Source: Branchiostoma floridae
Taxonomy: Eukaryota; Chordata; Leptocardii; Amphioxiformes; Branchiostomatidae
Length of the DNA: 64,000 nucleotides
NCBI RefSeq assembly: GCF_000003815.2
Contig: NC_049987.1
Coordinates: 17,959,959 to 18,023,958, forward strand
Reading direction: 5' to 3'
Shown: one piece after another, positions 30,556 to 63,691 of the stretch
How the letters are laid out: every line of letters begins with the position of its first letter
How positions within the stretch are numbered: the stretch's first letter is position 1
Made by a program: the position numbers and the translations under genes
Notes under the pieces: model-generated
Databases searched by the model: none
Seen by the model: only the letters and a program-made list of their open reading frames with translations
Told to the model about the DNA's origin: nothing

Positions 30556-33500
30556 TCAGGTTCAACGGGAGAGAGAAATGATTTTAAAGGCAGTAAACTT
30601 CACGTAATGCTACATTATATACATACAAATACAGAGGTCACTAATCATACTAAGATATATACACTAAAATTAAATTCATGTACGTATATGGAAATCGCAA
30701 ATTTAACGAAGTTAAATGACATAACAACTAACTACTCAAAGTAGTGCAATAGTCCATATTGTTTTCGCGTTAGTTTGGTATCAGATTTGCATGCTACTCT
30801 GTATTTTAAATGTACAGCTTTGCCGACATGTCAGAAGCGTCACCTACAGAAACGATTGCATACTGCAGGAAGAAGATAATGAACCATGTTGTTCAATAAG
30901 TTAATTAGAAAGAAACGGTTGTTGTTTCTGCACAGAGGTCATTTCGGAATGGCCATATTACTATATCCCTATTACTATTCTGCCAGGCGGGAATCTGAGG
31001 TGAACTTCAATTTCTTATTCAGCGATCAATTGACTTTTGCTTTTATCTCAGGTTTTGTAAACAAAAGCAGCAACCTTGTACTTCCACCAGTGCATTTTCT
31101 GTATACGTGTAGACACGGGCACTTTAAGGCCTGTGACAATTTTGGTCGAACATGAAATTTGAACCACTGCGTGACCTCAGGTAACCCCGCCGGGCCGGAG
31201 CGTTTTTAGAACGGTCCAATGTCAGTACCTAATGTTACATTGCGAAAACAGGAACTTACGATGCACGGGCCACACTATCTACTTTTCTTGAGACTTATTA
31301 ATGTTAAATGTTAAAGATATTGATCTAGTATTTATCAAATATCGGCATAACTAGAAGCGGTTAACAAAAGGGCACCCCCGCGAGGGCTGCAAGTGGTACA
31401 GTCCGAACATGCGTTCCGACCTCCCGGGGTGTGCAGTGGCGGGAAAACAGCGAGGCGCTCATACTTCAAGGAAACAGCAAAATAATGCTATAAATCGGTA
31501 TTTCTAGCCCAAAATGATTGTATGGCAGTTGACTGATGTCTTATAAGGCTAACTGCTTGCGAAATTTCGCATTGATACAACAGCAATTTAACAGATACAG
31601 ACATAAAACATTCATATTTTACCATCGGTTAATGTTACGTACAGTCAAACATGTCTTACTTGGGCGCAGTTCATGTAGGGTAAGTAGTGTTTCGTCGGCC
31701 CCTGCCCACATCAGGGCACCAGTTTTATTACGAGTTTTGTGCAGATTTAGGTTCATTAAGCCTTAGACCTTCAGAAATCAAGCGGGCCTTCTTGCAATAT
31801 CTTTGATTTCCGTGGCTGTATTGATATTTGTACGAAAAATACCAAAAAATTGTCAAAAAATTCTGTTTTTGCCCCAAAACGGAGCCTTACCGATGTAAAG
31901 CGGCAAGATCCCCGGGCATATTAGATATCACAGAGATATAATCTATTACTCCAGAAAATATGACTCAGTTAGACAATCATTTCATAGTGGGCACAGACCC
32001 ATTTTAATAGCATCCCTATTTTTTACCAAAAAATGGTTTTTTAAACCCAAAATATTGAGGATCCACAATTTTCTTGTCATCATATTTTGAATATGGGTGA
32101 ATTACGTTAACTGGCCAAAAATTGTTGAAAACAGATGGTTTCATCAAAAGTTATGGCCATATAACTGCTCGACTGAGAATCTACAGGTGTCACAGGCCTT
32201 AAACTGTCGAGCAACAACACCAAAGAATTTGCCTTTTTCCTAGAGCACATATCGGTCATATCTTGGGGGTCATGGCCACTGAGTAACCTTCGCTATTTTG
32301 CTCTTAACATCTGCACGGAGGTTAGGGTTGGGTGGGCAGGCGATCCATATTTGAAGTTTTTGAGCAATCATTCTTTGATCGGCTGAGAAGACAACAAAAC
32401 ACACAAAGTGTAAAAAGATTCGTTTCTTTACTATAGAAGTCGTTGAGATATATGTCAATAATGAATGTTTTAATAGATCGCACTGCTCGGAGAGAGCGCG
32501 GCGAGAGCGCCGTCCTAGTGGAAAGGGGTATATAACAGCTGCGTTCTGGCAGGCGGTATCGTTGTGAATATAAATAGCGCTGCTGAGTACAAAAGAACTC
32601 ACTGACCTTTTCCGAGAATATGACCCTGTTACAATCTTTAATGCCAAACACTTTTTTTAATCGGCTTCCAAGAAGGCAAGCGGAAGTTAGCGCGCCACCT
32701 GTTGGCTAACGTCATACTGCACCCGGTCTGTTGGAAAAATTTGATATCGTGTTGGACAGGTTATTATTAAATAATAATAAGAAGTCCTAAACCCTTGTTT
32801 TAATAAAAAATTATGTCTGGTTTGTGTTGACAAAACTGTAGAAACAAACAAACAACTATCTTTGTTGAAACCTTCTTTCTTTCTGTCGTCTACCGTATTT
32901 TGTTGTCATTATGATATTTGTCATTATTATATTATAATCATTATGCTGCCCCTATATTTAGCGCGTGCCTGCGAAGCTGGTGTGTTACGCCGAAGGGTGG
33001 TTATACCGGCTATATAGATACAGATACAGATATTTGATACGATATTTGATACTTCAGAGGTAACTACAAGCGGTTTAATAGCACTTAGCACCCGAGTCAA
33101 TGCCCCAAACTGCGTCAGCATCCCCTTTTGTTCTCTCCTTGCGGTCTTTGAAAATCTGTAACAATTGGAACTTTTCCAGAGAAGGAAGGAACCCCAACCA
33201 TGCCCGGGCTTGCCTTACGGTCGTTGGCCTCGATTCAAGCTTAGCGAACCACTTTCCGTGCGTAACAACCGCTAAGTAAAAACACACTAACCCCTTCTGT
33301 CCCAGTTTGAGACAAACGCTTCGTATCATGTTGACAGACTCTCTTCTCTTTGCCAACCAAAACAATCTCCGACTCAACTACGTTAAACTCTAGCTCCCAT
33401 AGCAAGGTGGTTGAAAACAAAACACACTCCAGTTTCTACTAAATCTGGCCCTGTCTTTCACGCATCATAACTCAAATTGAACTTAAGTACATTCGTGGCA

Positions 33501-33809: not shown

Positions 33810-33897
33810 ATGGCGAAACAGTGGTTGAATTGTGTTATTGTTTGCGCAGTCTTCACGCTTGCACTGAGTGGCCTGGCGTCTTCCAAGTTTTCTTCGG
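33810..33897 (+). CDS. Mosaic gene exon 1: signal peptide
   Basis: ATG begins MAKQWLNCVIVCAVFTLALS, a classic signal peptide with cleavage expected after the GLASS region. Ends on a GT donor in phase 1, which joins in frame to the first D8C exon 2.9 kb downstream. 5' context is AAAACATGG, a good start context. Confidence 0.8.
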
Positions 33898-36800
33898 GTA
33901 GGAATATTTTTTCCTTCATTCTTTTTTCCTTGTAATATGGCCTGTTATGTTTTGAGTACAATGATTAAGGTGAAATCGTGTCACTTAATATATAGTGACT
34001 CGTTCTGTAAGTTTAAAACACCATAGGAGGTCCTCTTAGAAACGACACATTGGTGACACTTTATATTTTCGACTACTAGTATATCTCCGCGACTCGACCT
34101 CTGCTTGGAGAATAATATTTTCTTACTTCTTAACGTAACATGGGATAAGACCTTGAAGAAATCTACAACTAGCTTTTACCCACAGGTAGTCTTGAGTAGA
34201 GCTTATGTTTGGCACTTGTCCCAAGTACTGCTTGTTGGCTTTTTAGGAAGTATGAAATGCATTGTCAGCGGTTTGTGGCTAACCACTGTGGTAGCCTGTA
34301 TGGATAAAGTAGACAAAAGGAAAAGGCTACTGTGTTATTTGAAACCTTGCTTGTTCTCCTTAGCAAATATAAGTGTAGTAGGCGGTGGAAGGGGGGGGGG
34401 AGGAGGATATGTGTTAGGGCTTTTTAAAAAAGCTAAAAGGTGTGCTAGTTTCAAATGAGTTGGGGTCAGATTATGAAACATTTGGATAGTTTCGAGAGGG
34501 CGTTTCTTATGAAACTTTGGGGGTTAATATTAGTCATCAGCTATTCTGCAGTGTGCAATCGGGCAGGTGTTTGTATCTGCGGTGTCAAAATAACACCTGT
34601 GCAACTTCGAGAGTTACAGTTTCATGCGAAACATTTGCTAACCCAATGTTTCGGATAGTCATCATAAAGATCAGCAAACTTGAGTTTCAAATTTCAGCCT
34701 TTGTGTGTACGTCACGCTTGTGTGTTATGATATCTCGGTGCGTGTGTGTTTGTGTGTGTGTTTGTTTGTGTGTGTGCGTTTGTGTGTGTTTGTGTCTATG
34801 TTTGTGTGTGTGTGGTGTGGTGTGTTTGTTTGTGTGTGTGTGTGTGTGTGTGTGTGGTGTGCGTGTGTGTGTATGAGTGTGTGGTGTGTGTGCGTAGATT
34901 TTAGAATATACCACGTAGACACCTGATACACGGTTTGGAGTAATGTACCTAAAACCCATCCCACACTGTGCAACGAAACTTCGGTTTAACGGCTTATTAC
35001 CGGGTCTGTCACCTTTGATTACCAACGACCTTGAAGTAAGTCAAAGGTCAAACCGGTAACCCACAAAAAGGACGACCAAAGTTCAGTGTAACCTACCGCA
35101 ACGTTAACACAATCGGAAAGACTTCAGAGTCTGTTTACTCGGCAAGACTTTCACAGTTTACATCTGTATGTCATCGGCTTGGATCTTTGCCATGTAGCGT
35201 TGAAAGCTTTCGATGTAACATTAACATGTCTTGGAAAGGTTGGAGATTTTCGTGGTAAGGAGGATGTTTTTCTTTGTCTTTGTATTTTTCAAAAATTTTC
35301 ATTTGCTTTAACGCATGTGGGGACAATGTTATTATGTTTTTATTGTTATTTTGACAATGTAACACAGCACTCAACTTACTTATTTTGATAGACAGTGCCA
35401 CAAGCATATTCTCCAAGCAGAGATTGTTTCGCTGGGATATAGCAGCGGTCGGGATTTTTACCAGCTGCTAGAGCGAGCCGGTAAAATCTCGACTACTATG
35501 TTAACTGTTATGTTATCTCCGCCTCTCAATCTCTGCTTGGGGAATACCACACGCAATGAACAGAGACAAATTAAATTTAGTCCTATAGGCTTTTAGGGTG
35601 CTACCCCCTGTTTCCTGGGCAAAATGTTGTAAAGCACCAACGCTGCATGCCACCGTCTGTTACGGTAGCAGAACACAGTTTTCGGCCTACGGGGATTTCT
35701 AGGTGACTAACATCGACTCTTTACATGGGGTCATGCGGGGCCATGCGGAACTGCAGCCGGCTCACCCAGGCAGTCAGCTGTAAATGTCACGCGCACTAGT
35801 ACGGGGAATGGGCAAACATCATGATCTTATATATACATACGATCTGAAAGCCGACGTATTATACTACCATATAGCAAAGTTCATGCCCCGCTGTCTTTCA
35901 TGTTACAGTGTTTACAGACGCTCCAAGATTTCGACCGCACTACTTTTTTAACCCCTACGGGGGTCGCGGATAAATACTGCGGGCTCCGACCTTACCTCCC
36001 CAACCGAAGACAGGTACTCATTTTACGCCTGGTAGGAGTAAGCCTAACGTCACATTTCCCGGCCGGGCAGTAATAGGCGCGGCAATGTACGACGGGCCGG
36101 AGAAGCGCGATTAAATCAGGCTAACTCTACCGTTGCCTCACGCGAACCCACCCAAGCCAGTAGTTTGGCACTGTACATGCATTTTTCGTGGAAAGAAAGG
36201 ATGTTGTTTTCTTTAGTTCCTTTGAAGCTGAGATGAACCATTGAACTTGGCAAGGTCAGGTCTCATAGTGACGAGTCTCAGCCTGTCGGCTTGTCACTTC
36301 TCAGACTCTTTTAGTCTTTACCCGACGATAACTCCCAACTGTTTGGTAAGATTGTGGGGTCTATTTGGATAGAAACGTAGCGCTTGTGTGTTTTTCCTTA
36401 CTCGTGATGTTCTGAAATAAAATCTACACGTACTATTTAGTACGCTAGAGAAAGGGGAGAGGGACTGGGAAAGGAGAGGTAAGGAAGAAAGAAAGAAAGA
36501 AGGCTAGAAGGAGGGATAAGAAAGGAAAGAAAGAAAAAAGAAATTTTAAAGAAAGAACAAGAAAACGGAGAGGTAGAGATGAAGGGTGTAAAGGAGGAGA
36601 GAGGAGAGAGATAAGGAAAGAGAGAGAAAGAGACTAAAGTTTGTACACAGACTACTTAGTACAGTATGTCTAAAATTCGACAGTGTGTACACTGCAGTTG
36701 TATCAAACTTATCATCAATTTACATCAAACTTATCATCATGTTTTTTTTTTCTAGACCGATACTGCTCCAAGTATCACGTACTAAACGAACCCTGGAGAA

Positions 36801-39800
36801 GTGCCCAAGCTAGATCCCTTGATCTGTACGGAAGACACCACTGTGACAACAAAGACGGGTTCCAGACCACCCGATGGTACAGATTCATGGGGGAGGCAGG
36901 CACAACCATGCCGACGAAACCACCACCTTCTTCCCACCGCTGCGGCTCGGACGCCCCCGTCTGGATGAATGGTATCAACCCGACGTACGAAGACGGGGTG
37001 GTCGAGCGCCAGGTTTGCGCACGGTTTGATAAGAAAATATGCAGATGGAGGTGGAACATACGCGTAAAGCGATGTCCCGAGGGTTTTCTCATCTACAAGT
37101 TGAAACCAGTGAAAGCCTGTAGTCTGACGTATTGTGGTCTAGGTAAGGAAATAATCATTCTTCTACGCAGAGACATCCAACGGCGCCAACAAAACCGCTT
37201 CTTGTCTGTACTCTGCTATCTCTACCATCACCATCAGTTCCTGACCGCCCTGCTTATAAATATTAATGAGCTTATATATGCGAGATCCCTTTTGAAAAGT
37301 GAAAGGCCTATTCTCTGATTCGCTGACAACCGGTATGTGGCGACACCCACAGGAACTGACGGGGATGTTTGAGATGGCAGATTAAAGACAAGAGGCGGTT
37401 TGCTGGTATCATTGTATGTCTCTATGTAGGAGAAATGATCAGTTTTAACGTTTAAACGCTTACCTGTACTTAGACCAGTAGACCTCCCTCCCAAGTCCCA
37501 AATCTATATATCAGATGTTCTATATGTTCTAAAGGTTTGTCTTTAGGCTTGATCTTGTTGTTCTGTATACTTAAAATGTTTAAGTTGATTTTGTGCATTC
37601 TTTGAGAAGTGTATGTGCCAGGCAGCCAGTATCAGCTTAGGTGCTAGGTTTGCCATGTATTGCATTGTCTATAATTTCAAAAAAATATATAATGTAATGG
37701 TGTTATTTGTGTATGTATCCATTGAGATTTCTGACAAGGCATTGCAATTCAATTTAGAATGGAATTGCCGTTTTTTTACACCTGCTTTCTTTAGTGATTG
37801 TGTATAAAATGTTATCCACATGCAAATGAAATTACGTGCTCCACAGGCATTCAAAATATGACGGTTGATGACGTCACCAGGCCTGCATCAAATGAGGATG
37901 AAGATGGCTCTGGTGCGTTGGACAATCGCAAAGAAGATGGTACGTGACTTATCCACCTATGGAATTGCTACTTAAACTCTTATCGCCATCTGTGTCGATA
38001 ATAAGCCGGTAAATAGATGTGGGTGTACAGAAATAGCAAAATAGAACGAGATAGAACGAAATGGAGCTATTCCATTTCGTTCTATTTCAAACTTTCTGTA
38101 CATCGATAGATATCACATTCGTATTTGTGGAATATCAGTCGCCCATTCATTTAAATTTAAAAGAAAACTTGTCAACGGTTTTTCCTAGATGTGAAAACTT
38201 TCTTTGTAAACACTTGAAGATCATTACGAGTGAATACCTAAAACAGGCCAAACAAAAGACAATTTGAATTTTGAATCTTTGCCACCTATCTATGATAGAA
38301 AGTGATTTTATTAGCAGCGCGCAAATTTAAACTTTATACCGTCAGTTGTTGCACCGTAGAAACGGTTGATGTCTTAATGGATCTCTCGGTTTCATTTCTT
38401 TTTTTTTCTTGTTCTGCAGTTCATCCCGCCTGTCACCACTACATTACTTTGGATGAGCCACAGAGAAGCGTACACTATCAAGTAGATCCAAACACAGCTA
38501 CAAACACTCTTCTATGCGACAAAAGAAGCGGGTTGCAGCATGGGTCTTGGTACCGCTTTGTGGGGGAGGGGGGTGTCATCATGGCGACGGAGCGCCCCCT
38601 ATCGACTCATCGCTGCGGTACACACGCTCCTGTTTGGATGAGAGGACCGCATCCAACCATAGAGGAAGGTGTCGTCACCCGGACAGTGTGTGCGTTTTGG
38701 GATGGCAACGATTGCAAGTGGTCTTGGGAAATCAAAGTTTTGTCGTGTCCCGGAGATTTCTTCGTCTACAAGCTGAGAAAAGCAACACAGTGTATTCTGG
38801 CTTACTGTACAACAGGTAAGATTGCTAAACTTTATATTAATTTGTATGATTTTGTTTGTGTACATATGATAAGGGTCTCATGTATTAGCTAGTTCTTTGC
38901 GTTATGGCTGTGTATAATTTGTAAATTGTAATATATTGCATGCACTGTTAGTCAAAGAACCTACGTTTCTAACTTTTAGCTTTACTCTGGTGTACTTAAT
39001 TTTGTTTTCCAAAACTCAAAATTAACCACTAACGCAACATTAATGACCATAAGGTCTTTGCATTCAATGACTTGTGGCTTGTTTTTTTTAAGCTTTAAAG
39101 TGAAATATTGCAACAGCAAACTTTTTATACGCTTTTTCTATAATCACAGATGGAGCCCCACAGACGACAGTGCCTTCCCCTACACCTTCCATGTCTGTTG
39201 AATTATTGAATGATGAGGATGATGAAACTGGGTCTGGGGAGCCGCACTTTGAAGGTGAGAGAAAGAAAGTTTTAGTTCCTTTTCTAAAGATTGTTCACTT
39301 ATGTGAGGATCCATGAAAATTATAATATCCGTTCACGGTTTTATTAGTTTGGAAAGTCACTGCATAACAAATCAGAAGCTTCACAATTCATAACCAAGAC
39401 AAACTAACTGTTACAGCCGACGTTTGGGACCGCATCTGTAGCAGCGACGCCTATAGCTGCAGTGCACGTTGAACCAGCCAGAATTACCCTGAGAAAGGTG
39501 ACAGACGGTCACTGACACGTTGGCTGAGAGTTTATGTCTTGGTTGTTGATTAAGCTATTAAAGACCCTTGTTATCTGGAGAGGGCAATGGTTTGACATAA
39601 GGTTAAATGTTTTCGTCCCTCGTCAGACGTACCTGCAACTGAAAGCCCTGATAACGCAAAAGATGTGGGCGCTGGATCACCTCACACCCCAGGTGAGATA
39701 TAAGACCAGATATTCATTTTACACAATATCCTCCTATTGCATACACGTTTATGGCAATCTCCCTGTTCAGATGTTAACCTTTTTAGCTGGTCACCCTGAT

Positions 39801-54800: not shown

Positions 54801-57800
54801 TCCAACACAAAGAAGGGACTCACCATAAATTTTCATTCGGAAGCTAATTACCCCTTAAAATTTGTAACTACCTGGTATTTTTTCATCAAAAACCATCTAG
54901 ATGAATGAATTTAGTCTATTTCCATTGCCCTTTGTGATTATTTGTTGCAAAAAAAGTAGTTTTAAAAATTCAAGGTGGTGGATATAATATGGCGGAGCCT
55001 CACTCGTATCTTAGATGTGCATGACGTCATTTTATGACGTCATTATGACGTCATCGATGTTGCTTTTGGCAATACGTCGTAATAAACATTATTATTCTGT
55101 TATCTGCACTTGTTGTTACGTTTGTGGTATAACTTGAAGTTTTCTGCGAATACCCTTTATTCATGGGTCGGATACTATGTCGACATCATGTCCTAAAAAT
55201 TTGGTGGCCCTACGGCACGTCTTTCAAGAGTTAGAGGACTTAGAAGTGGAGGGCCTCAAATGCCCCCCCCCCCCCTCGGTCTAGGGATGACCAAAAAATC
55301 CCGGTCTGAATAGGGTTAAGGAATAAAGGCTTTCGGTTGGCTTATTATCTATAATATATGGCCTCATTCGGTCAATACAGAACCATGGTAAAATCCTAAT
55401 TGACATCAGCCCAACAACGTCGACTGTGGCTAAACAGTCCTATACGAGAATGACAGTCCCTGCCACATAGAACACATCTGTAAACTCACCTTTAATAGAA
55501 CATAAGGTTATGCACTACTTCAATATTCTGAACATTAAGATATGCGACAGACAAGATAGACTTTCATCTACTTATATGTGAATTCATGAAGCAAACACAT
55601 TTAGCGTGAATTTAATGCCTATGTCTATGTGTTTTTGCTTTTCAAGGACCCGTACTCCAAACGTGCCGGGACCACGAAGTTTAACAAAATCAGAATCAAG
55701 TTTGAGAACTCCAAGGTCAAGGTTATTCGAGATGACTACACCTTTGCTAGCACTAACGGTAGGTCAGTTAATGACATTGTCAATAGGAAAAATAACTTCA
55801 TTGTACTGTATATGTTTGATATGGCGGGCGGCCGCTCCTTTGATGGTTATATTTGTTATTTTGTTTATAGGTCTTGCTGTCAAAAAAACAGCCAATCATA
55901 AGTAGCTTATAGCTTGCATCAAATTCTACGATCATAACTACATGGTACAAAATATTTATATGTTATATAATAGCATGTAGGATATGCCTGGATAGATCGT
56001 ACTTGCAATATTCTTAAGATCTGTTTAATTATTTTGTCAAACTTACTAGAGACCGTTCCCCTACGTCTTCCTGTTTTGCATAATGTTAAGCAACACATAC
56101 TGTAAATATTGATGTCTAGAGTTTGTTTATTTGTGAATTTATTGGTTTGGCTGTTTATCACGCACAGCCAGGGTTGTCCAACTGTTTTTGTTGGGCAACC
56201 CTGTTTCGCAGTTTGTTTTAACTATTACTTCAAATCTAATGATTATAGATGTTAAGAAAGAATCTCCACATCTTCCAGAAAATCTGGAGATTTTCCCCAG
56301 ATATCTCCAGATTTTTCGATTTTTAACGATGAATGACGACTCCCACTGGGGGTAATTATGATCCGTAAAGTGTCATGGAACCTTTTCACAAAGTATAAAC
56401 TGTGTAAGTATTAGCTGTAAAGGGTTAAAAATGTTTGTCCAAAGTTCAATATTGGTCCAAAATTAATCTGTAGGCTGTTATTTATATTTACCTTTCCTTT
56501 GACTTTAGGCTATAACAACGTACCATACGGGGAGGCTGGCGACTGTTATTCTTGGAAACAGGGATGTGCCAAAGGAACGTTTTCATTGGATCTTACCGGG
56601 ACTGGGCTCTCTTTAGCTTCCAACGTTCACTGGGTCATGGAGGAACGCTATCCAGAGTACATCAGCATCAACGACATGTTTATATCAGAAGACAGAACGG
56701 TTGGTCTTGTTGTTTACATTCTCCTACGCAGAGGGACCCACAGTCGTGTCCAAACTCCTTGGGGTCACCTCTGCTATCTGACGAACTCAGACCAGTTCCT
56801 AGTCGCCCTGCTTATGAATATTAATGAGCTTACCTGTATATGGGCAGTCAGCCGTTGGGGATCGGGCGCAGGAGGATGGTGCTATGTAAGACGTAACACG
56901 ATTGGCTAATAGCTTCAAAGCGGCCTTTGCGAGATGGCTTTCGTAAACAGAAAGCCCGAGAAATGCCTATTGTCTGAATGGCTGACAGCTGGTTTGTGGC
57001 GACAACCATAGTAACCGCTGGTAGGCCATGAGATAGCATGGCCCCATAGGCTGAGTCAGCTAGCCGTTGGGGACCGTGCGTAGGAGGATAGTTGTTAAAT
57101 GACATTTACAGTACCAGTCTTCACAGAACGTCACATCTTACATAGGGGCCATTATGATTTGGTCACAACTGAAAAATGGCCCTGCCGGGCAGTTAACGGG
57201 CTGTTTCGGGCCTTACCCCTACGGGGCACCGTGTGGCTACCGGAATATTTTTGGGCACGACCGGTCGATCAGGCCACGGTTAAAATCAAGCCGGGACCCG
57301 GTAACGCTGTAAGCTTATCATGAGCGCACCAAGAGGCACCCCCGTGATATCCGGCAGTCCTCTGGGACACGTGCAAAACTGTTGGGAAAATATCTTACTT
57401 TGCCACATATGTCGCACGGAGATCTTACTACGATTGTGATCCATCCCTTAACGTCCTTTGTAACCTACGTTGTCTTATTGCACTGTCATTTAGGTTGCAT
57501 CTGCGCGTTGCGGGGGATGGTGTGGACACTGCTGGCCTGTGGAAAAGAACTTAATTCTTTCCCACCCAAAATGTGACAACAACCGCCAAAGCAGCAAGGC
57601 AAAAGGTAGGCTAATTATCGTATACGAATATTTATAAGTTCCACCTGCAAAATTTGCTATCATAATTTCTACCAACTGCAGGTTATGTTCAGGTTTATCA
57701 GTTATAATTATTTTGCGTCCACAAATACATGGAGAGTTTTAGATTATGTTTTATTTTTACATTATTACGTTTGATTACATTGAAGTGAAGCAATTAGATG

Positions 57801-60800
57801 ATTTGTAGTTTCCATTGTGTGGTGATTTTTGTTTTCAAGACAAATCCGTAGAGAATTTCTACGAAGGCTGCTACAAGGATGGTAAAAGACGGAGGCTTCC
57901 CGATGCACTTCTCATCAGCGAGGACATGACAGCAGACATCTGTGTCAAACATTGTCGTCAAGAAGGATATTCTTATGCAGGTAATTCTACAATGACTGTA
58001 TTCTATTCGAAAAAAAAAGTTACAATTGTTATATTTCAGCCATACCATAGGTATGGTGAAATATATTGTATTCGTAATGTTTCTTTCTTTCTTTCTTTCT
58101 TTCTCCTGTCAAATCTTCAGAACACGGTATCTCCCTTGTTCCTCAACCGAATGACTTGAAATTTGGCACAAGGGTAGAGTGGGCCAATACCCTCGGACGT
58201 TTTTTTCATTTTTTCCATATCTGTCTCTTAAATGATTTTATTAAGGTTTTTTGGTCATCTTAAGACCAAAACTGTATATTTGGGCCCCCTGTACCCTGGT
58301 ATTATAACCGAATGAGCTGAAATTTGGTACAGATGTGCCTTGATAAGTCCCCCATATAGATTCAATATCAGTTTTGGTGTACAGTATAACGAAATACTTA
58401 TTTTTGCGATTTTTTGGTCATTTTTTTACCAAAAAAGGACACTTTTGGCTCCTGTACCTTGGTTTTAGAACCGGATGACCTGAAATTTAGTATAGGAGTG
58501 CCCTAGACATATGCGCACATGGATTCAATAACACTTGAGGCATACGGTACAATAAAATGCTCAATTTTGCGATTATTTGGCCATTTTATGACCAAAAAGT
58601 ACACTTTTGGCTATTGTGCTCTGGTTTTAAAACCAAATGACCTAAATTTTGGTAAAAGGGTGCACTAGATATTTATTCAAATGACACATGTATAATTTTT
58701 GTCATAGACTACGTCAAAATGATATATTTGGGGATTTTTTTGTCATTTTCCAATAGCCAGAGGGGTCAATGACCTTAAGGTCGTTGACCCCCAGCTGCAG
58801 ATTGGACCTACAGGCATATATGTCTATCTAATCTAATTAGATAGGTAACCAATCACTTAGCCTGAATCTATATCCTAAAGAGGGGGGGTGGCAGCCAATC
58901 AGCGAGCCCGGTGTTATCTGGAAGAGTCCATTCTTACACGGAGGGGTTCGTTTTTTTTTTTTTATTCATCATTGGACTGGTGAAGTCTTTCAGTGGATGC
59001 ATTTTTGGACAGGTCTATTTTGCAATTTTACAGAATGTGTGCTGGAAGAGTCTATTCTCGCACGGAGGGGGGATTTTTCAAAATTCATATTTTGGACTTT
59101 GGTGACTTCTAGTTTGTCAAAGTCTTTCAGTAGGGTTATTTTTGGACTGGTCTAATTTGCAATTTTACATGGGTGTTCTGGAAGAGTCCATTCTTGCATA
59201 GAGGGGGCTTTTTTTTAAAATCCATTTTTTGGACTTCAGTGATTATGTCAAAGTCCTATTTTAGCAGATGTATTTTTGGACTGCTCTACTTTACATGGAA
59301 GAGTCCATTTTTTGCACACGGAAGGGGGATTTTTTCAAATTCAGTTTTGAACGGGTGATGATTCAAAATTCAATTTTAGTGGAAGTGTTTTTAGACTGGT
59401 CTATTATACCTTTTTATACACTGGGACCTTTTTTGCTAAATTCAATTTTGGATTTGGTTTCTTATTCAAAAGGCCTGAAGGTTTCAGTGGGAGTATTTCT
59501 GGACTGGTCTATTGTGCAAATTCACATAGGGTGCACTGGAGTCCATTCTTGAACGGGGGAATTTTGTAAGACTCATTTTTGGGTTAAACCGTCATTAGTA
59601 AAAGTGATTTTTCAAATGGGTGATTTTGAAATAGCCTATTGTTGCATGGGGAGGGAGATGGCTGAAATATGCTGTATTTGCTCTCAAGCAAATGTCGGCC
59701 TTTCTAGTTTAAAATACCATTATTACCATTGGTGGATTTCTTGGTTGTGATTACGTCACGCATGTCAAACAATTTCTTGTATTTTTCTTTCAAAGGTACT
59801 CAGTACTACAAAGAGTGCTGGTGCGGCACTGAGCTACCACACCGTGGACCACGTGAAGATAATGAATGCGCGACCCCTTGCGGAGGAAATCATAATAAGA
59901 TGTGCGGAGGCGAATGGAGATTATCAGTGTACAAAGGTTGGTAAACATCTTAAAGATTTGTTGTCACTCACCTAACAAAATACTATATACAACTTAGCTA
60001 CGTACAACCTTCAGCATTGAGTTTTCTTTTTCAACACGACCAGATCGGATGGATTTACCCGCCACCGTTTCGATAGGCCATCTCTAGGTATACTCTGGAT
60101 GATAGTTGCCTGTCGTACTTCTTATTGCAGCTAGATGTCGCTGTTGCATTGCGAAGAATGGCAGTCCCAAATGTGATAAACGTGGATACAATCTACGTCA
60201 CGTTTGGGACCGCATTAACGACTGTGCAGTAGCGAAACCTATCTGCAGTGCGATGTACCAAGAATCAGTCATTGTCGACCTTAGGAAAATAACTAAGGGT
60301 CCGATAAAACTGTATCTGGATGGTAAATTACCATTAGTTGTGTTTAAAGAAGTTTTTTCATTCGAATGTCTAATTTCTGAAATTCCTAAAATCACGGACT
60401 TGCTGTGTCACTATTAAAAGGCTTTTTTGGACCCAGAAGAAACAAGGATGAAGGAAAATTATTGTTTGTCGTAGCTATTTGCAATGAAAGATATGGTTCG
60501 CAATAAATGCTGAGCGTCAGTTAATTCAAAATATTTTGAAATTTTAGTGGAGCCAGTTGACGAAATTCATTCGGAGGGACGCCATGACTGCCAGACATCG
60601 GACGGGGCTTCCTACAGAGGAACGGTAGCTGTGACCAGATCGGGCCTTACGTGTCAACGCTGGGACCGGCAGACACCCCATCAGCACACGAGAACGTCTG
60701 ACAATTATCCGTCATCCGGATTGGAGGAAAACTACTGCCGGAATCCGGACGGAACGCCCGGAGTCTGGTGCTACACCACGGATCCTAACAAGAGATGGGA

Positions 60801-63691
60801 CCTATGTGACGTGCCAGTATGTGGTACGTACATTTCAATATAATAAGGAACATTAGAAAGAATAGCAATCTTTTTAGCGTTATATTCAAGGTCATGTTTA
60901 TCACTTGAACGTAGTGGTAAATGATGTTACACTTCTCATATGAAAGCGTAGTTGATAAATGTCATCTTCACAGAAATTTTAGATTTTGAAGTTTCATGTA
61001 TTTCAGGATATATGCCTAAGAATCTTGTATCCCAACCGACTGTTTTCTAAATGTGTTAAAATTGTAGTGGAGCCAACCACCGCTGTTGAAGTTCCTTTGG
61101 ATGGACCTCATAGCTGCCAGACATCGGACGGGGCTTCCTACAGAGGAACGGTAGCTGTGACCAGATCAGGCCGCACGTGCCAACGCTGGGACCGGCAGAC
61201 ACCACATGAGCACACGAGAACGTCCGACAACTATCCGTCATCCGGATTGGAGGAAAACTACTGCCGGAATCCGGATGGAACCCCCGGAGTCTGGTGTTAC
61301 ACCACGGATCCTAACAAGAGATGGGACTTTTGTGATGTCCCAGTTTGTGGTACGTACACTACCATATGTATATGCATGAAAGTGCAAATTATGATAATTT
61401 GCTGCAAAACACAACCAAGAAAACATGATATGATGACCCAATAACCCATGATCTCGACTTAACTTTTACTAGCTTTAGACTAGAGTAGACACTTGTGATA
61501 TAATTGTTTTTACACTGTTTGAATCACTTATGTTACCTGAAATTACATTTTTTTTTCTAAATTCTAAGCTCGTATTACGACAGGTCTGACAGGAAGTGAT
61601 GTCAAAGTTGCCAGAATAGGTCATCGAATACGATCATCTCATTTCCTGTCTTTGATTTCCTACAATAACGCAGACAATGGATGAAAGCCAGTGGGAAATA
61701 CACAGACAGAAACTGACAGATGTTATCGTTTAAAAAGAGCTGCATTGGCATCTTATTTCGCCCCTCGGATAGGACGTTAAATGGAGGTCCCGTGTCTGGG
61801 GAGAGCCATACCCCGGGCACGTTAAAGAACCCGCCACATGTGCGATGGTGCGGTGTGAGCGGTTCAAAACCTACAGTACCTTGGCCGCACCTGGGGCAAT
61901 TACTGTCGTATTGAGGTCACCTGAGTGGCGCCGAATGGCAGCTCGCTCCAGACCCTTGCGATTAAGCCCCGCCCATTGTAAGCTCCTCGCAATTCAGCCC
62001 CTGGCTGCAAAGAGTGAGTAGTCGGCCCACCCAATAACAATAACAATAACAATGACAAATTTTCTCCACAGATGTCAGCCCACAGACAGCAATGCCATCG
62101 ATGACAACGGTTCCATCCCAGACTGGACGTCCAGACAGTGATGATGATGAAGACCGAGAAGTTTGGGGTTCCGCTTACACAAATGGTTAGTGAATCTGTA
62201 ACAATGTTATACATAATACATATGTTTTATTCCTATGGACACAGACCAATATGTTTCATGTACTGCTGTCATTTCCTACTCCAATATCCGCATACGCAGG
62301 TCAATATATATCTGTGCATTATTCCAAATGCGAGACCATATCGCCCATACATAAATGTGCTGTTATCTTTATAATGTTATTGATGAAATTTTGTTGCACT
62401 GTATCTGTATGTAGTTTAGATTCTGTATGCACTATTAATAGTAACAATTGCCATTCGCTGTATCCCATACAATTGTCGATCAATAAAGTTCATTTATAAA
62501 TTCCTTCTATAAATAGCTAACCCATGATGTAATCGTTAAATCTTGATATTCTAGAATTTTTAATTTAGTTAAAGTTCTTTTTATTTCAGAAGCTGTGCCT
62601 AAGAATCTAGCAACCCAACCACCTGTTTCAACAAAAATAGCAGCAAAGTCAGGTTAGAGTTATTGCAATTATCTTTTCCTTTTGAAGAGATCCTTTCATC
62701 CGTCAAAAGCGTACTCCTGATAAAGAAAGTTTACAACACTGTAAACAAGTGGAGAGATTAGTTCCTAGTGTGCTCCACGTGCGTTTTAGCGGTTCTAATA
62801 TGTTAAGTTAAATCACATCATGATCTGCCTCCTGATACACGATTTACTATTTCGATATATTTGATTCATTGAACACTTCGCAATTTTCCAGGATCCTTGA
62901 TAGAAAATCCCTCAACCCAAGTCCCGGTCCACAAAGCAGGAACAGACGCCACGCCAACAGGTCAGCTCATGTTTCATATTGTGTCTACTTTCTACATTCA
63001 TGTCAAAAATTATATTGGTGAACCGAATCGGATATGTTTTATCTATATGTAACTTGTTGTCGATTGATGTAAATATATTAACTAAGTGATTACAGATCAT
63101 ATTCCTTTATAAGGTCAAGGTAGTAGGCCTAGTACTACTTCGACCAATGGTAGAGTCCAGATTGAGACATCTTTCTAAAGTAACATTCATTCTCTTTCTG
63201 ACGCTTGATACAATTAAACACTTTGTGGATCCTTTCTTGAGTGTGTCGTCATGTTGTCTTTATTTGGTTATATATGCTTGCCTAACGAAAAATGAAATCA
63301 TGTCTTTTTACAGTGTGTCCAATATCTGGCTACATTCGTCTACGAGGAGCTTGCTACAAGTTCTTTGCTGAACCGAAGACGTACGAAGACGCTAGACAGA
63401 GGTGTGCCGAAGATGGTGGGCTGTTAGCCATGCCGAAAGACCGTGCCACCAACCGGTTCGTCACCAACCACCATCGCGGATCCAGCTGGCTTGGGTTAAC
63501 TGACATCAACAGAGAAGGCCGTTGGGTTTATGAGGACGGCCAACTCCTGAAGTCGTCCGGGTATTCTAGCTGGGCACGTGGTGAACCAAACGATGCTGAT
63601 TACATTGAAGACTGTGCCGAATTCACGCCAACCCGCGCGTTTTGGAATGATGCACCGTGCAACTCCAGCAAGCCGTTTACCTGTCAGATAG
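33810..63691 (+). CDS. Giant mosaic lectin/D8C/GON/WSC/kringle protein (about 37 exons, 3' end outside window)
   Basis: Exons: 33810-33897, 36756-37142, 37847-37939, 38420-38815, 39150-39254, 39627-39692 (tentative), 40901-41269, 42995-43090, 43276-43638, 44143-44247, 44946-45407, 45652-45723, 45971-46351, 46795-46896, 47667-gap, 48481-48864, 49161-49199, 49685-49890, 50041-50224, 50551-50574, 50905-51142, 51731-51963, 52314-52618, 53037-53181, 53837-54084, 55647-55758, 56509-56699, 57494-57605, 57840-57980, 59796-59936, 60131-60322, 60548-60823, 61068-61349, 62072-62185, 62590-62652, 62892-62960, 63314-63691. All junctions are GT/AG and phase-compatible; nearly all module borders are phase 1. 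Together ~2,400 residues, starting with a signal peptide, so extracellular. The module mix (four D8C, F-type lectin, three C-type lectins, discoidin, GON, WSC, two kringles) suggests a glycan-binding matrix, mucus or immune protein. No internal start or stop suggests more than one gene, but transcript data are needed. No membrane segment seen so far. Confidence 0.75.
34738..34895. repeat. (TG)n microsatellite
   Basis: TG/TTTG-rich tract in intron 1 of the mosaic gene; the open frames across it on both strands are artefacts. Confidence 0.95.
35407..35546. mobile_element. 140 bp MITE with 20 bp terminal inverted repeats
   Basis: TATTCTCCAAGCAGAGATTG at the left end pairs with CAATCTCTGCTTGGGGAATA at the right. 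A lone right-end-like piece (CCTCTGCTTGGAGAATAATA) lies at about 34080-34120. Non-coding; class unknown. In intron 1 of the mosaic gene. Confidence 0.8.
36440..36635. repeat. Purine-rich (GA) tract
   Basis: About 190 bp of almost pure A/G with AAAG and GGAG units, in intron 1 shortly before the first D8C exon. Confidence 0.9.
36756..37142 (+). CDS. Mosaic gene exon 2: D8C domain 1
   Basis: Symmetrical phase 1-1 exon of 129 codons. Hallmarks of the D8C module known from uromodulin, GP2 and OIT3: YHVLNEPWRS, then WYRFMGEAGTTMPT, CGSDAPVWMNG, VCARFDKKICRWRWNIRVKRC and FLIYKLKP...CSLTYC, with eight Cys in the expected order. In uromodulin and GP2 this module lies next to the ZP region and carries glycans that bind bacterial FimH. 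This first copy is the most basic and most diverged of the four. Confidence 0.85.
37150..37345 (+). repeat. Dispersed repeat, copy 1 (second copy at 56712)
   Basis: Begins right after the exon 2 donor: 'ATTCTTCTACGCAGAGACATC', later 'CTCTGCTATCTCTACC' and 'CCTGACCGCCCTGCTTAT' and 'AATATTAATGAGCTTA'. The same order of motifs follows the exon ending at 56699. Non-coding, unknown class. Confidence 0.65.
37847..37939 (+). CDS. Mosaic gene exon 3: acidic Ser-Gly linker
   Basis: Phase 1-1, 31 codons, between CCACAG and GTACGT. Contains SNEDEDGSGALDN: acidic residues then G-S-G, matching the loose signal for xylosyltransferase addition of glycosaminoglycan chains. No folded domain expected. Confidence 0.75.
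38420..38815 (+). CDS. Mosaic gene exon 4: D8C domain 2
   Basis: 132 codons, phase 1-1. Motifs: CHHYITLDEPQRSV, WYRFVGEGGVIMAT, HRCGTHAPVWMRGPHPTIEE, VCAFWDGNDCKWSWEIKVLSC, FFVYKL and CILAYCTT. Close to the family consensus (CGTHAPVW; GGxFVYKL), and clearly more like D8C 3 and 4 than D8C 1. Confidence 0.88.
39150..39254 (+). CDS. Mosaic gene exon 5: acidic Ser-Gly linker
   Basis: 35 codons, phase 1-1. DGAPQTTVPSPTPS start (Pro/Thr-rich, likely O-glycosylated) then NDEDDETGSGEPH. Same plan as the linkers at 44143 and 46795, showing repeated duplication of one linker exon. Confidence 0.8.
39417..39472 (+). other. Possible alternative or decayed exon resembling the 60131 module
   Basis: After a TTACAG acceptor, phase-1 reading gives ADVWDRICSSDAYSCSAR then TGA. 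The DNA matches ACGTTTGGGACCGCAT in the 60131-60322 exon, where the protein reads HVWDRINDCA...CSA in the same frame. Either a decayed copy of that module or a terminal exon for a short secreted form ending after two D8C domains. Confidence 0.4.
39627..39692 (+). CDS. Mosaic gene tentative linker exon
   Basis: CCCTCGTCAG acceptor and CAG/GTGAGA donor frame 22 codons in phase 1-1: DVPATESPDNAKDVGAGSPH. Composition (Pro, acidic, Gly-Ser) fits the other linkers but the acidic GSG is not formed. Only splice logic supports it. Confidence 0.45.
40248..40380. mobile_element. Foldback element
   Basis: TAGTTACCCCATGGGC at the left pairs with CCATGGGGTAACTA at the right; inner arms CGAGTTTTCTGTGTATAT and ATATACACAGAAAACG also pair. 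133 bp, loop-forming, non-coding. Confidence 0.75.
40901..41269 (+). CDS. Mosaic gene exon: cysteine-rich module 1, family not recognised
   Basis: 123 codons, phase 1-1, TTTATAG acceptor and GTATTT donor. Reads 'GWDYYKVPVIGKMTSANVKA' then ACEAAGYVTPCSGDSDC, ECVLTGLEDCYN, MCGTRPYGCAKLQGVYQYMN and CGVESKLWCTIGSKWEDRYAFC. About ten Cys. The start is reminiscent of a short extracellular module that recurs in lancelet proteins, but I cannot name the family. Phase symmetry and Cys content argue for a disulfide-bonded shuffled domain. Confidence 0.7.
41310..42400 (-). repeat. Dispersed ~1.05 kb repeat, inverted copy
   Basis: Full-length copy of the 2346-4500 repeat in reverse: starts with CCTCCATGAAATGTCATGG, has the TGTCTGTC tract, and ends GGTCGCCGAACTCTAGTT. 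Sits in the intron after cysteine-rich module 1. Confidence 0.88.
42405..42895. repeat. GTA-rich minisatellite
   Basis: About 490 bp of diverged ~25-35 bp units built on 'ATCAGTAGTACAGTAGTACAT'. In an intron, directly next to the inverted 1.05 kb repeat. Confidence 0.85.
42995..43090 (+). CDS. Mosaic gene exon: Thr/Ala/Pro mucin-like linker
   Basis: 32 codons, phase 1-1: DWNATTATPQATTAAPQTTT and so on. Short tandem repeat of ACAACC/GCTACA codons; a dense O-glycosylation target, with one N-A-T sequon. Confidence 0.75.
43276..43638 (+). CDS. Mosaic gene exon: cysteine-rich module 2, family not recognised
   Basis: 121 codons, phase 1-1. Starts NCCGKILRQATEVVDQSSDY, then GWTMCYIDERDTAHHKTPCRD, FGCWHGTTGNSHGPA and ends TLGVCIKGITC. 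Eight Cys. Preceded by the mucin-like linker and followed by an acidic linker. No family recognised. Confidence 0.7.
44143..44247 (+). CDS. Mosaic gene exon: acidic Ser-Gly linker
   Basis: 35 codons, phase 1-1: DEAPETTVPPPIPSIPDEVL then SDDEDDVGSGEPDDK. Textbook-like acidic/GSG/acidic context for a glycosaminoglycan chain. Confidence 0.8.
44946..45407 (+). CDS. Mosaic gene exon: F-type lectin (fucolectin) domain
   Basis: 154 codons, phase 1-1. Family hallmarks: NLALGKRTKQSSLWDAGYSQ, AVDGDRSTNWYSGSCTHTEV, DPWWYVELESSHPIGKVVIV, INPFEIRIGNS and GRYVGIRLPGENRILTLCEV. F-type lectins bind fucose through a His and an R-x-D...R set with an adjacent Cys-Cys pair. The His (CTHT) is present, but the canonical R-G-D-C-C region reads R-R-S-P-K-H-S here, so the Asp and the Cys pair are missing and fucose binding may be lost or changed. 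Confidence 0.88.
45652..45723 (+). CDS. Mosaic gene exon: acidic Ser-Gly linker
   Basis: 24 codons, phase 1-1: DENALPTTVPFPSDDEDDVGSGDS. Short version of the same linker plan. Confidence 0.78.
45971..46351 (+). CDS. Mosaic gene exon: D8C domain 3
   Basis: 127 codons, phase 1-1. Motifs: HYKFDDAWRDVSNG, WHRFSGSRGSMMIPTERPL, NRCGTHAPVWMKGKLPTVEE, ACAFWGEDECNWSWDIDVMAC, GGYFVYKLPKPPVCHLAYC. Tyr of the usual WYRF is His. Otherwise a full set of D8C cysteines. Confidence 0.88.
46795..46896 (+). CDS. Mosaic gene exon: acidic Ser-Gly linker
   Basis: 34 codons, phase 1-1: YDTPQPSPTMIPAISDGSL then SDDEDEVGSGEPDDK. Nearly the same C-terminal half as the linker at 44143. Confidence 0.8.
47361..47624 (-). 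repeat. Truncated copy of the 1.05 kb dispersed repeat
   Basis: Has the CCTCAATGAAATGTCCTGGAGG end, the CTGTCTGT tract and the 'GGTTTCATACTTGGTGTGTT' segment, then stops within the first internal sub-repeat. In the intron before the next linker. Confidence 0.82.
47667..47787 (+). CDS. Mosaic gene exon: linker, 3' end lost in assembly gap
   Basis: CGCCACAG acceptor, then DVNPQTTMPSTTTIPTPTED and acidic SSDANEDDADSRRVEGS. Open up to the run of N. Closely related to the linker at 62072 (DVSPQTAMPSMTTVPSQT), and the introns before the two are also related. Confidence 0.7.
47788..48281. other. Assembly gap (494 N)
   Basis: Run of undetermined bases hiding the end of a linker exon and possibly a further short exon. 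Confidence 0.99.
48481..48864 (+). CDS. Mosaic gene exon: D8C domain 4
   Basis: 128 codons, phase 1-1. Motifs: CEKHYVLNEPWRSVRTH, WYRFMGEGGTMIPT, HRCSTHAPVWMKGKHPTVEQ, VCAFWEEEECHWSWKINVRAC, GGYYVYKLPKPKICYSAYC. The CGTHAP motif reads CSTHAP. Confidence 0.88.
48905..49140. repeat. Intronic tandem duplication (~127 bp unit)
   Basis: 'AACTATTG(G/A)TTTTCTCCAA' through 'ACAAAATATGAAATGT' occurs at about 48910 and again at 49040, with few differences. Confidence 0.88.
49161..49199 (+). CDS. Mosaic gene exon: minimal Ser-Gly linker
   Basis: 13 codons, phase 1-1: DEDTEGSGEPEGS, giving one clear GSG and a second GSG across the next junction. The Pro/Thr part is absent. Confidence 0.7.
49685..50224 (+). 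CDS. Mosaic gene exons: C-type lectin domain 1
   Basis: Exons 49685-49890 and 50041-50224 join in phase 0. Reads YDAAKQTCAADGGHLVSIET, DYWIGLNDQA, then WTWSDGKPLNDGG, KWAPGEPNNNEGIQDCGQLW, FQWDDDRCSYKKYFICQI. Four Cys (short form). EPN plus WDD matches a Ca2+-dependent mannose-type sugar site, with Asp in place of Asn of WND. A 100 N gap lies in the intron between the two halves, so exon borders are unaffected. Confidence 0.87.
49914..50013. other. Assembly gap (100 N, nominal size)
   Basis: Exactly 100 N, probably a placeholder length, inside an intron. Confidence 0.99.
50551..50574 (+). CDS. Mosaic gene micro-exon (tentative)
   Basis: Eight codons between ACATATAG and GTAATT in phase 1-1 (GPGEAYDG). 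It fits the linker composition and phase but is short enough to be a chance match. Confidence 0.45.
50905..51963 (+). CDS. Mosaic gene exons: Ser-Gly linker plus C-type lectin domain 2
   Basis: Exons 50905-51142 and 51731-51963 join in phase 2. The first starts with DDIIFEGSGEEPLPTQ, a linker with GSG fused to the lectin exon, then GCPENNIVVLPSGKKYV, YEDAQTECRRQGGIVAIP; the second reads FWLGVRWTSSAGWVDGRG, TTWAPGEPNDRYNGYRCSH, NNWADAYCNSLYNFVCEI. EPN is present; the usual WND is WAD, which may weaken Ca2+ or sugar binding. Confidence 0.87.
52314..53181 (+). CDS. Mosaic gene exons: F5/8 type C (discoidin) domain
   Basis: Exons 52314-52618 and 53037-53181, phase 0 between them. Reads SASSQFDSRHSPDRADIN, NNQDQWLMRDLGEVKVVTGV, DQYVTSYVISYGVKDGDEKF, then FPGNSDRDAEVYNDFREYNG, ARYIKIHPRIWHQHISMRMK. 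Starts phase 1 and ends phase 1, so it moves as a unit. Discoidin modules bind lipid, glycan or protein ligands; the usual N-terminal Cys is absent and the C-terminal Cys is replaced (KIVTS). Confidence 0.88.
53401..53538. mobile_element. Foldback element with ~62 bp arms
   Basis: Arms 53401-53462 and 53477-53538 pair over nearly their whole length (AATACAACACGGTGTATTCC ... GGAATACACCGTGTTGTATT). A further inverted pair TTATGTCATACC/GGTATGACATAA (53541-53552, 53785-53796) encloses the sequence to the right, so a second foldback may be joined to it. Confidence 0.85.
53837..57605 (+). CDS. Mosaic gene exons: GON domain
   Basis: Exons 53837-54084, 55647-55758, 56509-56699, 57494-57605. The joined protein matches the GON module of ADAMTS9/20: SCSELKSVDPASKDGEYTLH, VYCHNMASERPEEFLTLPSG, NFANIYADRL, FNKIRIKFENSKVKVI, YGEAGDCYSWKQGCAKGTFS, LDLTGTGLSLASNVHW and CGGWCGHCWPVEKN. 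Borders are phase 1 outside and 0/1/0 inside. No metalloprotease or thrombospondin repeats are found nearby, so this is GON outside an ADAMTS. The donor at 56699 is the weak GTTGGT. Role of GON is not well understood; in ADAMTS it affects secretion and ER-Golgi traffic. Confidence 0.85.
54361..55319. mobile_element. 959 bp TTAA-flanked MITE, piggyBac-like ends
   Basis: Left end TTAACCCTATTCAGAC and right end GTCTGAATAGGGTTAA are perfect complements. TTAA plus a CCCT terminus is the arrangement of piggyBac-type elements, though TTAA could itself belong to the inverted repeat. Non-coding. Contains four TGACGTCA palindromes (54709-54716, 55022-55029, 55035-55042, 55046-55053). Lies in the first GON intron. 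Confidence 0.8.
56712..57005 (+). repeat. Dispersed repeat, copy 2 (first copy at 37150)
   Basis: 'ATTCTCCTACGCAGAGGGACC', 'CACCTCTGCTATCTGAC', 'GTCGCCCTGCTTATGAATATT', later 'GTTTGTGGCGACAACC'. Same order as at 37150-37345. Again begins within ~15 bp of a splice donor. Confidence 0.65.
57840..59936 (+). CDS. Mosaic gene exons: WSC domain
   Basis: Exons 57840-57980 and 59796-59936, 47 codons each, phase 1 throughout. Reads FYEGCYKDGKRRRLPDALLI, CVKHCRQEGYSYAG, YYKECWCGTELPHRGP, ECATPCGGNHNKMCGGEWRL, SVYK. Eight Cys with the WSC endings (CxGxxxxxCGG...SVY). WSC modules bind carbohydrate in yeast sensors, polycystin-1 and kremen. The intron between the halves is filled by two tandem arrays. 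Confidence 0.88.
58120..58760. repeat. Tandem repeat, four ~160 bp units
   Basis: Units start near 58130, 58289, 58455 and 58614 with 'CTGTACC(C/T)TGGT...AACCGAATGA(C/G)(C/T)TGAAATTTGG' and each carries 'TTTTTTGGTCATTTT...ACCAAAA'. In the WSC intron. Confidence 0.85.
58912..59690. repeat. Tandem repeat, about six ~120-130 bp units
   Basis: Repeated 'CTGGAAGAGTCCATTCTTGC', a G-run, 'TTTTTTCAAAATTCAATTTTGG', 'TTTGGACTGGTCTA' at about 58918, 59041, 59177, 59296, 59415 and 59535. Second array in the WSC intron. Open frames here are repeat artefacts. Confidence 0.85.
60131..60322 (+). CDS. Mosaic gene exon: small cysteine-rich module 3, family not recognised
   Basis: 64 codons, phase 1-1, TTATTGCAG acceptor and GTAAAT donor. 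Reads ARCRCCIAKNGSPKCDKRGY, HVWDRINDCAVAKPICSAMY and ends IVDLRKITKGPIKLYLD. Seven Cys early, none late. May be the first half of a larger domain whose other half is missing. Confidence 0.65.
60548..60823 (+). CDS. Mosaic gene exon: kringle 1
   Basis: 92 codons, phase 1-1. All six kringle Cys: CQTSDGASYRGTVAVTRSG, TCQRWDRQTPHQHT, NYCRNPDGTPGVWCYTTDPN, RWDLCDVPVC. The lysine-binding centre of plasminogen kringles reads D-x-D with two Trp; here the Trp residues are kept but the motif is D-G-T, so lysine binding is doubtful. Confidence 0.92.
61007..61052 (+). pseudogene. Decayed linker exon before kringle 2
   Basis: After TATTTCAG the DNA reads GGATATATGCCTAAGAATCT and CCCAACCGACTGTTTTC, matching the linker exon at 62590-62652 (TGCCTAAGAATCTAGCAACC). 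In phase 1 it reaches TAA after Phe. A relic of a linker copied with the kringle. Confidence 0.55.
61068..61349 (+). CDS. Mosaic gene exon: kringle 2
   Basis: 94 codons, phase 1-1. Over the 78 residues from first to last Cys it differs from kringle 1 at only three positions (L/R, Q/E, L/F). The N-terminal lead (VEPTTAVEVPLDGPHS) has diverged. Recent exon duplication or gene conversion. Same D-G-T change at the lysine site. Confidence 0.92.
61752..62062 (+). mobile_element. SINE-like dispersed repeat (inverse of 18636-18935)
   Basis: Contains GGACGTTAAATGGAGGTCCC, 'CACGTTAAAGAACCCGCC', 'TGTCGTATTGAGGTCACCTG' and 'GAATGGCAGCTCGCTCC', ending in an (AATAAC)n tail just before the acceptor of the next exon. 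Confidence 0.7.
62072..62185 (+). CDS. Mosaic gene exon: acidic Thr/Ser linker
   Basis: 38 codons, phase 1-1: DVSPQTAMPSMTTVPSQT, then DSDDDEDREVWGSAYTN. Paralogue of the 47667 linker. GSG of the others is GSA here, so the putative chain-attachment site is lost. Confidence 0.75.
62590..62960 (+). CDS. Mosaic gene exons: two short Pro/Thr linkers
   Basis: Exons 62590-62652 (EAVPKNLATQPPVSTKIAAK) and 62892-62960 (GSLIENPSTQVPVHKAGT...), both phase 1-1 with TTTCAG/TTCCAG acceptors and GTTAGA/GTCAGC donors. Low complexity, no Cys; spacer between kringle 2 and the next lectin domain. Confidence 0.62.
63314..63691 (+). CDS. Mosaic gene exon: C-type lectin domain 3
   Basis: Single exon of 126 codons, phase 1-1. 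Reads VCPISGYIRLRGACYKFFAE, YEDARQRCAEDGGLLAMP, SSWLGLTDINREGRWVYEDG, SSWARGEPNDADYIEDCAEF, AFWNDAPCNSSKPFTCQI. Long form with the extra N-terminal Cys pair. EPN and WND are both intact, predicting Ca2+-dependent binding of mannose, GlcNAc or fucose. Unlike the first two lectin domains it has no internal intron, so its origin is separate. Ends in a donor (GTATGT), so the gene continues. Confidence 0.9.

Follow-up and report, generated by a model that had tools for sequence, protein, structure and literature searches.

A predicted membrane-anchored mosaic protein of sixteen extracellular modules in the lancelet Branchiostoma floridae, with an inverted sister copy

Do the D8C, lectin, discoidin, GON, WSC and kringle exons that follow one another on a single contig of the Branchiostoma floridae genome belong to one gene, and what kind of protein would such a gene make? 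The window, which is the whole stretch of DNA that was analysed, comprises 64,000 nucleotides (C9:17959959-18023958); the genome counts 513,431,437 bases and is divided into 431 contigs. Exons were modelled with a self-made exon-chain finder (generic splice matrices and self-trained codon scores) followed by manual curation against domain boundaries. The curated chain runs in frame from a signal peptide at 33810 through 37 exons to a stop at 65913, 1.9 kb beyond the window, and a linker exon at 62590-62652 was added as exon 38 because a paralogue, described below, keeps its length, splice sites and frame. The final model has 38 exons and encodes 2,542 residues (~285 kDa); 35 of the exons lie within the window (33810-63691) and code for 2,323 residues, and V-set Ig, linker and transmembrane exons at 64035-65913 complete the gene beyond it. 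There are two assembly gaps inside the gene, and a 39th exon (linker 7b, from ~47667) enters an N gap at 47788-48281 and was left out of the 38-exon model.

The first-pass annotation had described about 37 exons joining into one reading of at least ~2,400 residues between 33810 and 63691, and much of this holds: there is one long reading, and the first and last exons in the window are exact, although the part within the window is slightly shorter than claimed and three more exons follow before the gene ends. Its signal peptide was found again by a scan for start exons and is 97% identical at the amino acid level in the paralogue, all of the modules that it named have Pfam matches above cut-off, and its view of a single mosaic gene of phase-1 exons agrees with the model, in which 32 of 37 introns are phase 1 (four are phase 0 and one is phase 2) and 26 of 36 internal exons are of the 1-1 class. 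Absent from its list were two cysteine-rich modules, here called A and B, the Ig domain, the membrane anchor, a series of acidic Gly-Ser-Gly linkers and the second copy of the gene. With A and B counted there are sixteen extracellular modules of ten kinds, and the order is signal peptide, two D8C, A, B, F-type-lectin-like, two D8C, two C-type lectin, discoidin, GON, WSC, two kringle, a third C-type lectin, Ig and transmembrane segment (Table 1).

The forward strand of 33500-67000 gives an exon-chain score of 460 with 41 exons and the reverse strand, at the same settings, 52.5 with 21 exons, a comparison in which the forward strand is favoured since this region also served to train the codon scores; five of five shuffled sequences (2-base blocks) score 0 with zero exons. 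Several candidate exons were rejected: 57127-57300 and 60131-60322 have non-triplet gaps in the paralogue (the latter also has stops), and 40292-40669 and 53442-53748 are without a blastn match in it. A splice out of the transmembrane exon at 65908 was also rejected, since in the paralogue the stop is retained but the donor is gone.

Table 1. Exons and modules of the predicted gene, in window coordinates unless stated otherwise.
Feature	Position	Strand	Support
Exon 1, signal peptide MAKQWLNCVIVCAVFTLALSGLASSKFSS	33810..33897	+	start-exon scan; paralogue 97% aa identical
D8C module 1	36756..37142	+	PF23283 E 2.4e-17; paralogue 80%
Linker 1 (DEDGSG)	37847..37939	+	splice sites conserved in paralogue
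D8C module 2	38420..38815	+	PF23283 E 4.2e-22
Linker 2 (DEDDETGSGEP)	39150..39254	+	mapped in paralogue; Gly-Ser-Gly not kept there
Linker 3	39627..39692	+	paralogue alignment
Module A, cysteine-rich, without Pfam match	40901..41269	+	at least 88 matches in own genome; Ka/Ks 0.25
Linker 4, Thr-rich	42995..43090	+	paralogue differs by 21 bases, in frame
Module B, cysteine-rich, without Pfam match	43276..43638	+	at least 11 matches in own genome; Ka/Ks 0.09
Linker 5 (DDEDDVGSGEPDD)	44143..44247	+	paralogue alignment
F-type-lectin-like module	44946..45407	+	PF22633 E 2.3e-14, PF00754 E 7.1e-9
Linker 6 (DDEDDVGSGDS)	45652..45723	+	gene model; unmatched in paralogue
D8C module 3	45971..46351	+	PF23283 E 1.4e-21; paralogue without own counterpart
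Linker 7 (DDEDEVGSGEPDD)	46795..46896	+	paralogue alignment
Linker 7b, cut by gap 47788-48281	47667..47787	+	paralogue counterpart at 2974659
D8C module 4	48481..48864	+	PF23283 E 1.4e-21
Linker 8 (TEGSGEPEGSG)	49161..49199	+	paralogue alignment
C-type lectin 1, exons 49685-49890, 50041-50224	49685..50224	+	Lectin_C, E 2.6e-38 jointly with lectin 2
Linker 9, 24-base exon	50551..50574	+	paralogue: residues identical, splice sites kept
C-type lectin 2, leading FEGSGEEP, exons 50905-51142, 51731-51963	50905..51963	+	Lectin_C
Discoidin module, exons 52314-52618, 53037-53181	52314..53181	+	PF00754 E 1.1e-17
GON module, exons 53837-54084, 55647-55758, 56509-56699, 57494-57605	53837..57605	+	PF08685 E 1.5e-50, positions 2-195/199
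WSC module, exons 57840-57980, 59796-59936	57840..59936	+	PF01822 E 3.2e-22, 1-82/82
Kringle 1	60548..60823	+	PF00051, E 8.4e-56 over two stretches; acceptor score weak
Kringle 2	61068..61349	+	PF00051; tandem copy of kringle 1; acceptor score weak
Linker 10	62072..62185	+	gene model; no collinear paralogue counterpart
Linker 10b	62590..62652	+	paralogue: equal length, splice sites, frame
Linker 11	62892..62960	+	paralogue alignment
C-type lectin 3, last in-window exon	63314..63691	+	Lectin_C E 1.4e-19; Ka/Ks 0.18
Pro/Thr linker and V-set Ig	L001:35-469 (L001:1 = base after window 64000)	+	V-set E 1.2e-10
Linker 12	L001:800-892	+	paralogue alignment, one extra base there
Transmembrane segment, tail WRKRG, stop	L001:1783-1913	+	conserved in paralogue

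The second copy, located through the best genome matches of module A, lies 15 Mb away on the minus strand of the same contig (C9:2958963-2996788). By tblastn, 30 exons out of the 37 in the first model have collinear counterparts there in the same order, including the signal peptide, D8C 1 and 2, A and B (twice), the F-type-like module, D8C 4, the C-type lectins, discoidin, GON, WSC, one kringle, Ig, linker 12, the transmembrane exon and most linkers, and alignment adds linkers 4, 8 and 9 to give 33. Neither search yields a counterpart of linker 6, D8C 3, one kringle or linker 10, which therefore lack this check. The two kringle exons in the window are near-identical, a recent tandem duplication, and the paralogue has one. 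Boundaries were mapped at both ends for 31 of the 33 exons tried, with linker 4 and the transmembrane exon aligned separately; all 31 have a GT donor, all 30 that have an acceptor use AG, and 30 of the 31 are equal in length or differ by a multiple of three, linker 12 being the exception. Over 31 exons (~2,128 codons) Ka is 0.070, Ks 0.309 and Ka/Ks 0.23, from a simple Nei-Gojobori count that takes in 22 out-of-frame codons of linker 12, and the ratio is below 1 in 28 of 29 in-frame exons for which it is defined (linker 2 has 1.53). Exon positions are 97% alignable with 88.8% identity, and the non-exon part 45% with 79.0%. Purifying selection on every module common to both copies strongly supports the exons as modelled, and the nearly complete second copy indicates that the predicted assembly of modules is real and kept by selection.

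The product had been thought to be secreted, a view that the last exon does not support: this exon encodes a membrane-spanning segment and a tail of five residues, both conserved in the paralogue, and the stop after WRKRG occupies the same codon in both copies (TAG here, TAA there). A signal peptide, a single C-terminal membrane segment and a stop make a type I membrane protein the likeliest product, a topology judged from the hydropathy of the start and from visual inspection of the membrane segment rather than by a dedicated predictor. Because the anchor carries almost no cytoplasmic part, the protein is expected to tether and present its ectodomain, or to be shed, and not to signal alone. 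At a probability of roughly 0.55 we favour one gene encoding one type I membrane protein of ~2,540 residues. Its long, jointed ectodomain would project from an epithelial or immune cell as a multivalent surface for capture and adhesion; its C-type lectin, WSC and discoidin modules would grip glycans of microbes, mucus or matrix, and the acidic Gly-Ser-Gly linkers would space the modules and may bear glycosaminoglycan chains.

A mainly soluble protein of mucus or matrix, freed by shedding or by a splice upstream of the membrane exon, is an unlikely alternative, and it draws on linker 12 of the paralogue (C9:2959661-2959754), where one additional A within a run puts the exon out of frame. If this exon is included, a stop falls before the membrane segment and the product would end after the Ig domain, so the second copy may make a soluble form; if this 1-1 exon is skipped, the frame is kept. 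The extra A may be a real change, an assembly error or part of an exon that splicing skips. When linker 12 is omitted, the paralogue's collinear exons form an open reading of 2,183 residues up to the stop, which also lacks linker 4 and the second A-B pair. Glycan-modifying neighbours (NXPE genes) likewise suit a soluble product, and against it stands the conservation of membrane segment and stop in both copies.

It is rather improbable that the tethered, single-gene reading arises from two or more adjacent genes misread as one, for example a D8C/A/B/F-type-lectin-like gene, a lectin/GON/WSC/kringle gene and a lectin-Ig-transmembrane gene. Fused predictions of tandem neighbours are described as a known source of false architectures (PMC3927609), and agreement of phase is by itself little proof, since any join between two phase-1 exons stays in frame and such borders join freely. 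Of the 36 introns in the first model, 19 contain AATAAA or ATTAAA, and a duplicated segment carrying two neighbouring genes would resemble the paralogue observed. Apart from intron 1 (2,858 bases), however, all introns are of 1,815 bases or less, similar acidic linkers recur throughout from D8C 1 to C-type lectin 2, and exon 1 is the one signal-peptide start exon found at the thresholds used on the plus strand of 31000-69500, in a scan that also gives one candidate in its reverse-strand control and is not exhaustive, since it misses a likely next-gene start near 69.23 kb. The paralogue, moreover, keeps the module order and neither neighbour: DNA similarity is collinear from ~32.5 to 66.5 kb, with an extra patch at 67.1-67.6 kb matching some 5 kb further on, and outside this block there are scattered non-collinear matches, none of which overlaps the upstream NXPE model exons and one of which, 95 bases long, overlaps an exon in the rough model of the kringle/fucosyltransferase gene downstream. 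That the copied unit has the limits of this gene speaks well, though not conclusively, for one gene, and a single predicted gene across the locus is well supported at the level of sequence. A decaying or unexpressed gene, to which the two assembly gaps might point, is highly improbable with a frame open over 38 exons, a Ka/Ks of 0.23 and 28 of 29 exon ratios below 1.

The locus adjoins likely glycan-modifying genes, as NXPE1 is reported to acetylate sialic acids in human colon (PMC12216134). Coding stretches of NXPE type, with NXPE4_C and neurexophilin matches, lie at 5068-5661 (-), 15906-16481 (-), 19278-19856 (-) and 27034-30999 (+), and a leucine-rich-repeat reading frame at 1-1134 (-) runs off the start of the window. 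The next gene downstream (~69.2-79.8 kb in extended coordinates, a rough model) has an odd enzyme-plus-kringle arrangement, with a kringle, two LDL-receptor A modules and a NodZ/FUT8-like fucosyltransferase region.

There are eight GSG sites, in linkers rich in D and E, compared with a mean of 1.1 and a highest value of 6 in 2,000 residue shuffles, and six acidic SG sites, compared with a mean of 0.21 and a highest value of 3. At least four acids occur among the eight residues preceding six of the eight GSG sites, and GSG is kept in the paralogue at five of the six sites that lie wholly inside the exons compared. Acidic residues N-terminal of GSG in disordered linkers are described as the setting of chondroitin sulphate sites (PMC10424144); acidic residues precede GSG here, and linker disorder was judged from the absence of domains. 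A strict attachment rule asks for SGXG with acidic residues before it (PMC2531186), a pattern found at none of the eight GSG sites, and the proteoglycan reading is therefore a proposal. The eight linker sites nonetheless suggest putative glycosaminoglycan chains. That the gene represents a new class of cell-surface lectin proteoglycan, with a tethered core, linker exons that space its lectin, D8C, GON, WSC and kringle modules and bear up to eight putative glycosaminoglycan sites, and the new families A and B, is a tentative extension and rather doubtful; if true, one molecule would both bind glycans and display charged chains of its own.

The first-pass count of at least six potential glycan-binding modules is weakened by inspection of the sugar sites. 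A mannose-type C-type lectin site, as in mannose-binding protein, consists of EPN, E and W-N-D. C-type lectin 3 has all elements of this calcium and sugar site (EPN...EDC...WND), and domains 1 and 2 are incomplete, the first with a partial site (EPN with QDC and WDD) and the second with a degraded one (EPN with YRC and WAD). Plasminogen-type kringles that bind lysine have a D-x-D lysine site, which by eye is absent from both kringles here (NPDGTPGVWC, the second acid being replaced). The module that we take to be of F-type lectin kind is called NedA-like galactose-binding or F5-F8 type C by Pfam. It shares with F-type lectins the Pfam galactose-binding/F5-F8C match and the cation motif h2DGx (present as AVDGD), and differs in that the fucose motif HX24RXDX4(R/K) (PMC5712786) is absent in a regular-expression search with the spacing relaxed to 20-34. 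In uromodulin and GP2 the D8C bears a glycan instead of binding one, and is described as part of a decoy module that offers high-mannose glycan to a bacterial adhesin (PMC8930769). An N-glycan sequon is found in one of the four D8C modules (D8C 3), and such decoy use is thus unlikely here.

Modules A and B have no Pfam match at E up to 1, and a Pfam scan of ten A and nine B members gives best E values of 0.063 and 0.28. PDB sequence searches return nothing credible (best E 0.011 for A, an antibody chain, and 0.0037 for B, a ryanodine receptor chimera), PDB profile searches give a best value of 0.44 for A and no match for B, and two scans of prokaryote genomes confirm 0 of 24 and 0 of 23 pattern matches. 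Single-sequence structure prediction yields a mean pLDDT of 39.5 (A) and 46.1 (B). In the lancelet's own genome there are at least 88 matches to A and at least 11 to B, with 66 to D8C and 60, counted exon-wise, to GON. The Ig part is matched in two of 119 among the matches listed, namely this gene and its paralogue (117 of 1,111 candidates scored). A third locus (C9:13.24-13.28 Mb) has four A modules, one B and a C-type lectin, and no other module match over 40 kb. The modules also occur in company at other loci, A with B at C9:13246452-13252154 and D8C with B at C17:77668-89340. C-type lectin 3 has a solitary copy at C9:21689634-21690017 (88% over 118 residues, or 81% in another comparison), where the only further exon matches of the gene within 3.4 kb are lectin cross-matches. 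Being cysteine-rich and having neither a Pfam-A nor a credible PDB sequence match, A and B are ready targets for naming and structural work; that they are two new families widely reused by this lancelet is, like the proteoglycan reading of which it forms part, possible but uncertain.

Among known proteins, thrombomodulin and the lecticans are lectin-bearing proteoglycans that combine a C-type lectin module with acidic Ser-Gly linkers, and thrombomodulin also has a membrane anchor and a short tail. The predicted protein resembles them in its C-type lectin modules and acidic Ser-Gly linkers, its glycosaminoglycan being putative, and unlike them it has no EGF, link or sushi match in Pfam scans of the module exons. 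With ADAMTS9 and ADAMTS20 it has in common the GON module, nearly complete over four exons, and metalloprotease and thrombospondin matches are absent from the Pfam scan of module exons. Uromodulin, GP2 and OIT3 share its D8C modules, four here and each above the Pfam cut-off; EGF and ZP matches, the latter expected of a uromodulin/GP2-type ZP protein, are absent from the module-exon scan, which excludes most linker exons and the gap, and each D8C exon has eight cysteines compared with ten in the D10C domain of GP2 (PMC8930769). No title among the matches listed, from open-licence PubMed Central text and partial module sets, describes this module order. Lancelets are reported to gain domain pairs at more than 10 per Myr (PMC4284660), and a new module order is therefore to be expected in them; in a comparison between two lancelet species 1-1 exons are said to make up ~28% of non-shuffled exons, 40% of shuffled exons and 51% of shuffled domain exons (PMC4284660). 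The predicted gene has the reported marks of lancelet exon-shuffled proteins, which are common 1-1 phase exons, promiscuous domains and fast new pairs (PMC4284660), and differs from others in placing sixteen modules of ten kinds, two of them without Pfam match, in one frame. What sets the architecture apart is how long it is, that two of its modules are unnamed and that it has a sister copy. Since whole modules have been gained or lost between the copies, one can measure directly how fast shuffling proceeds and in what units, and the locus offers a checked example of the reach of exon shuffling in a lancelet, with sixteen modules under selection.
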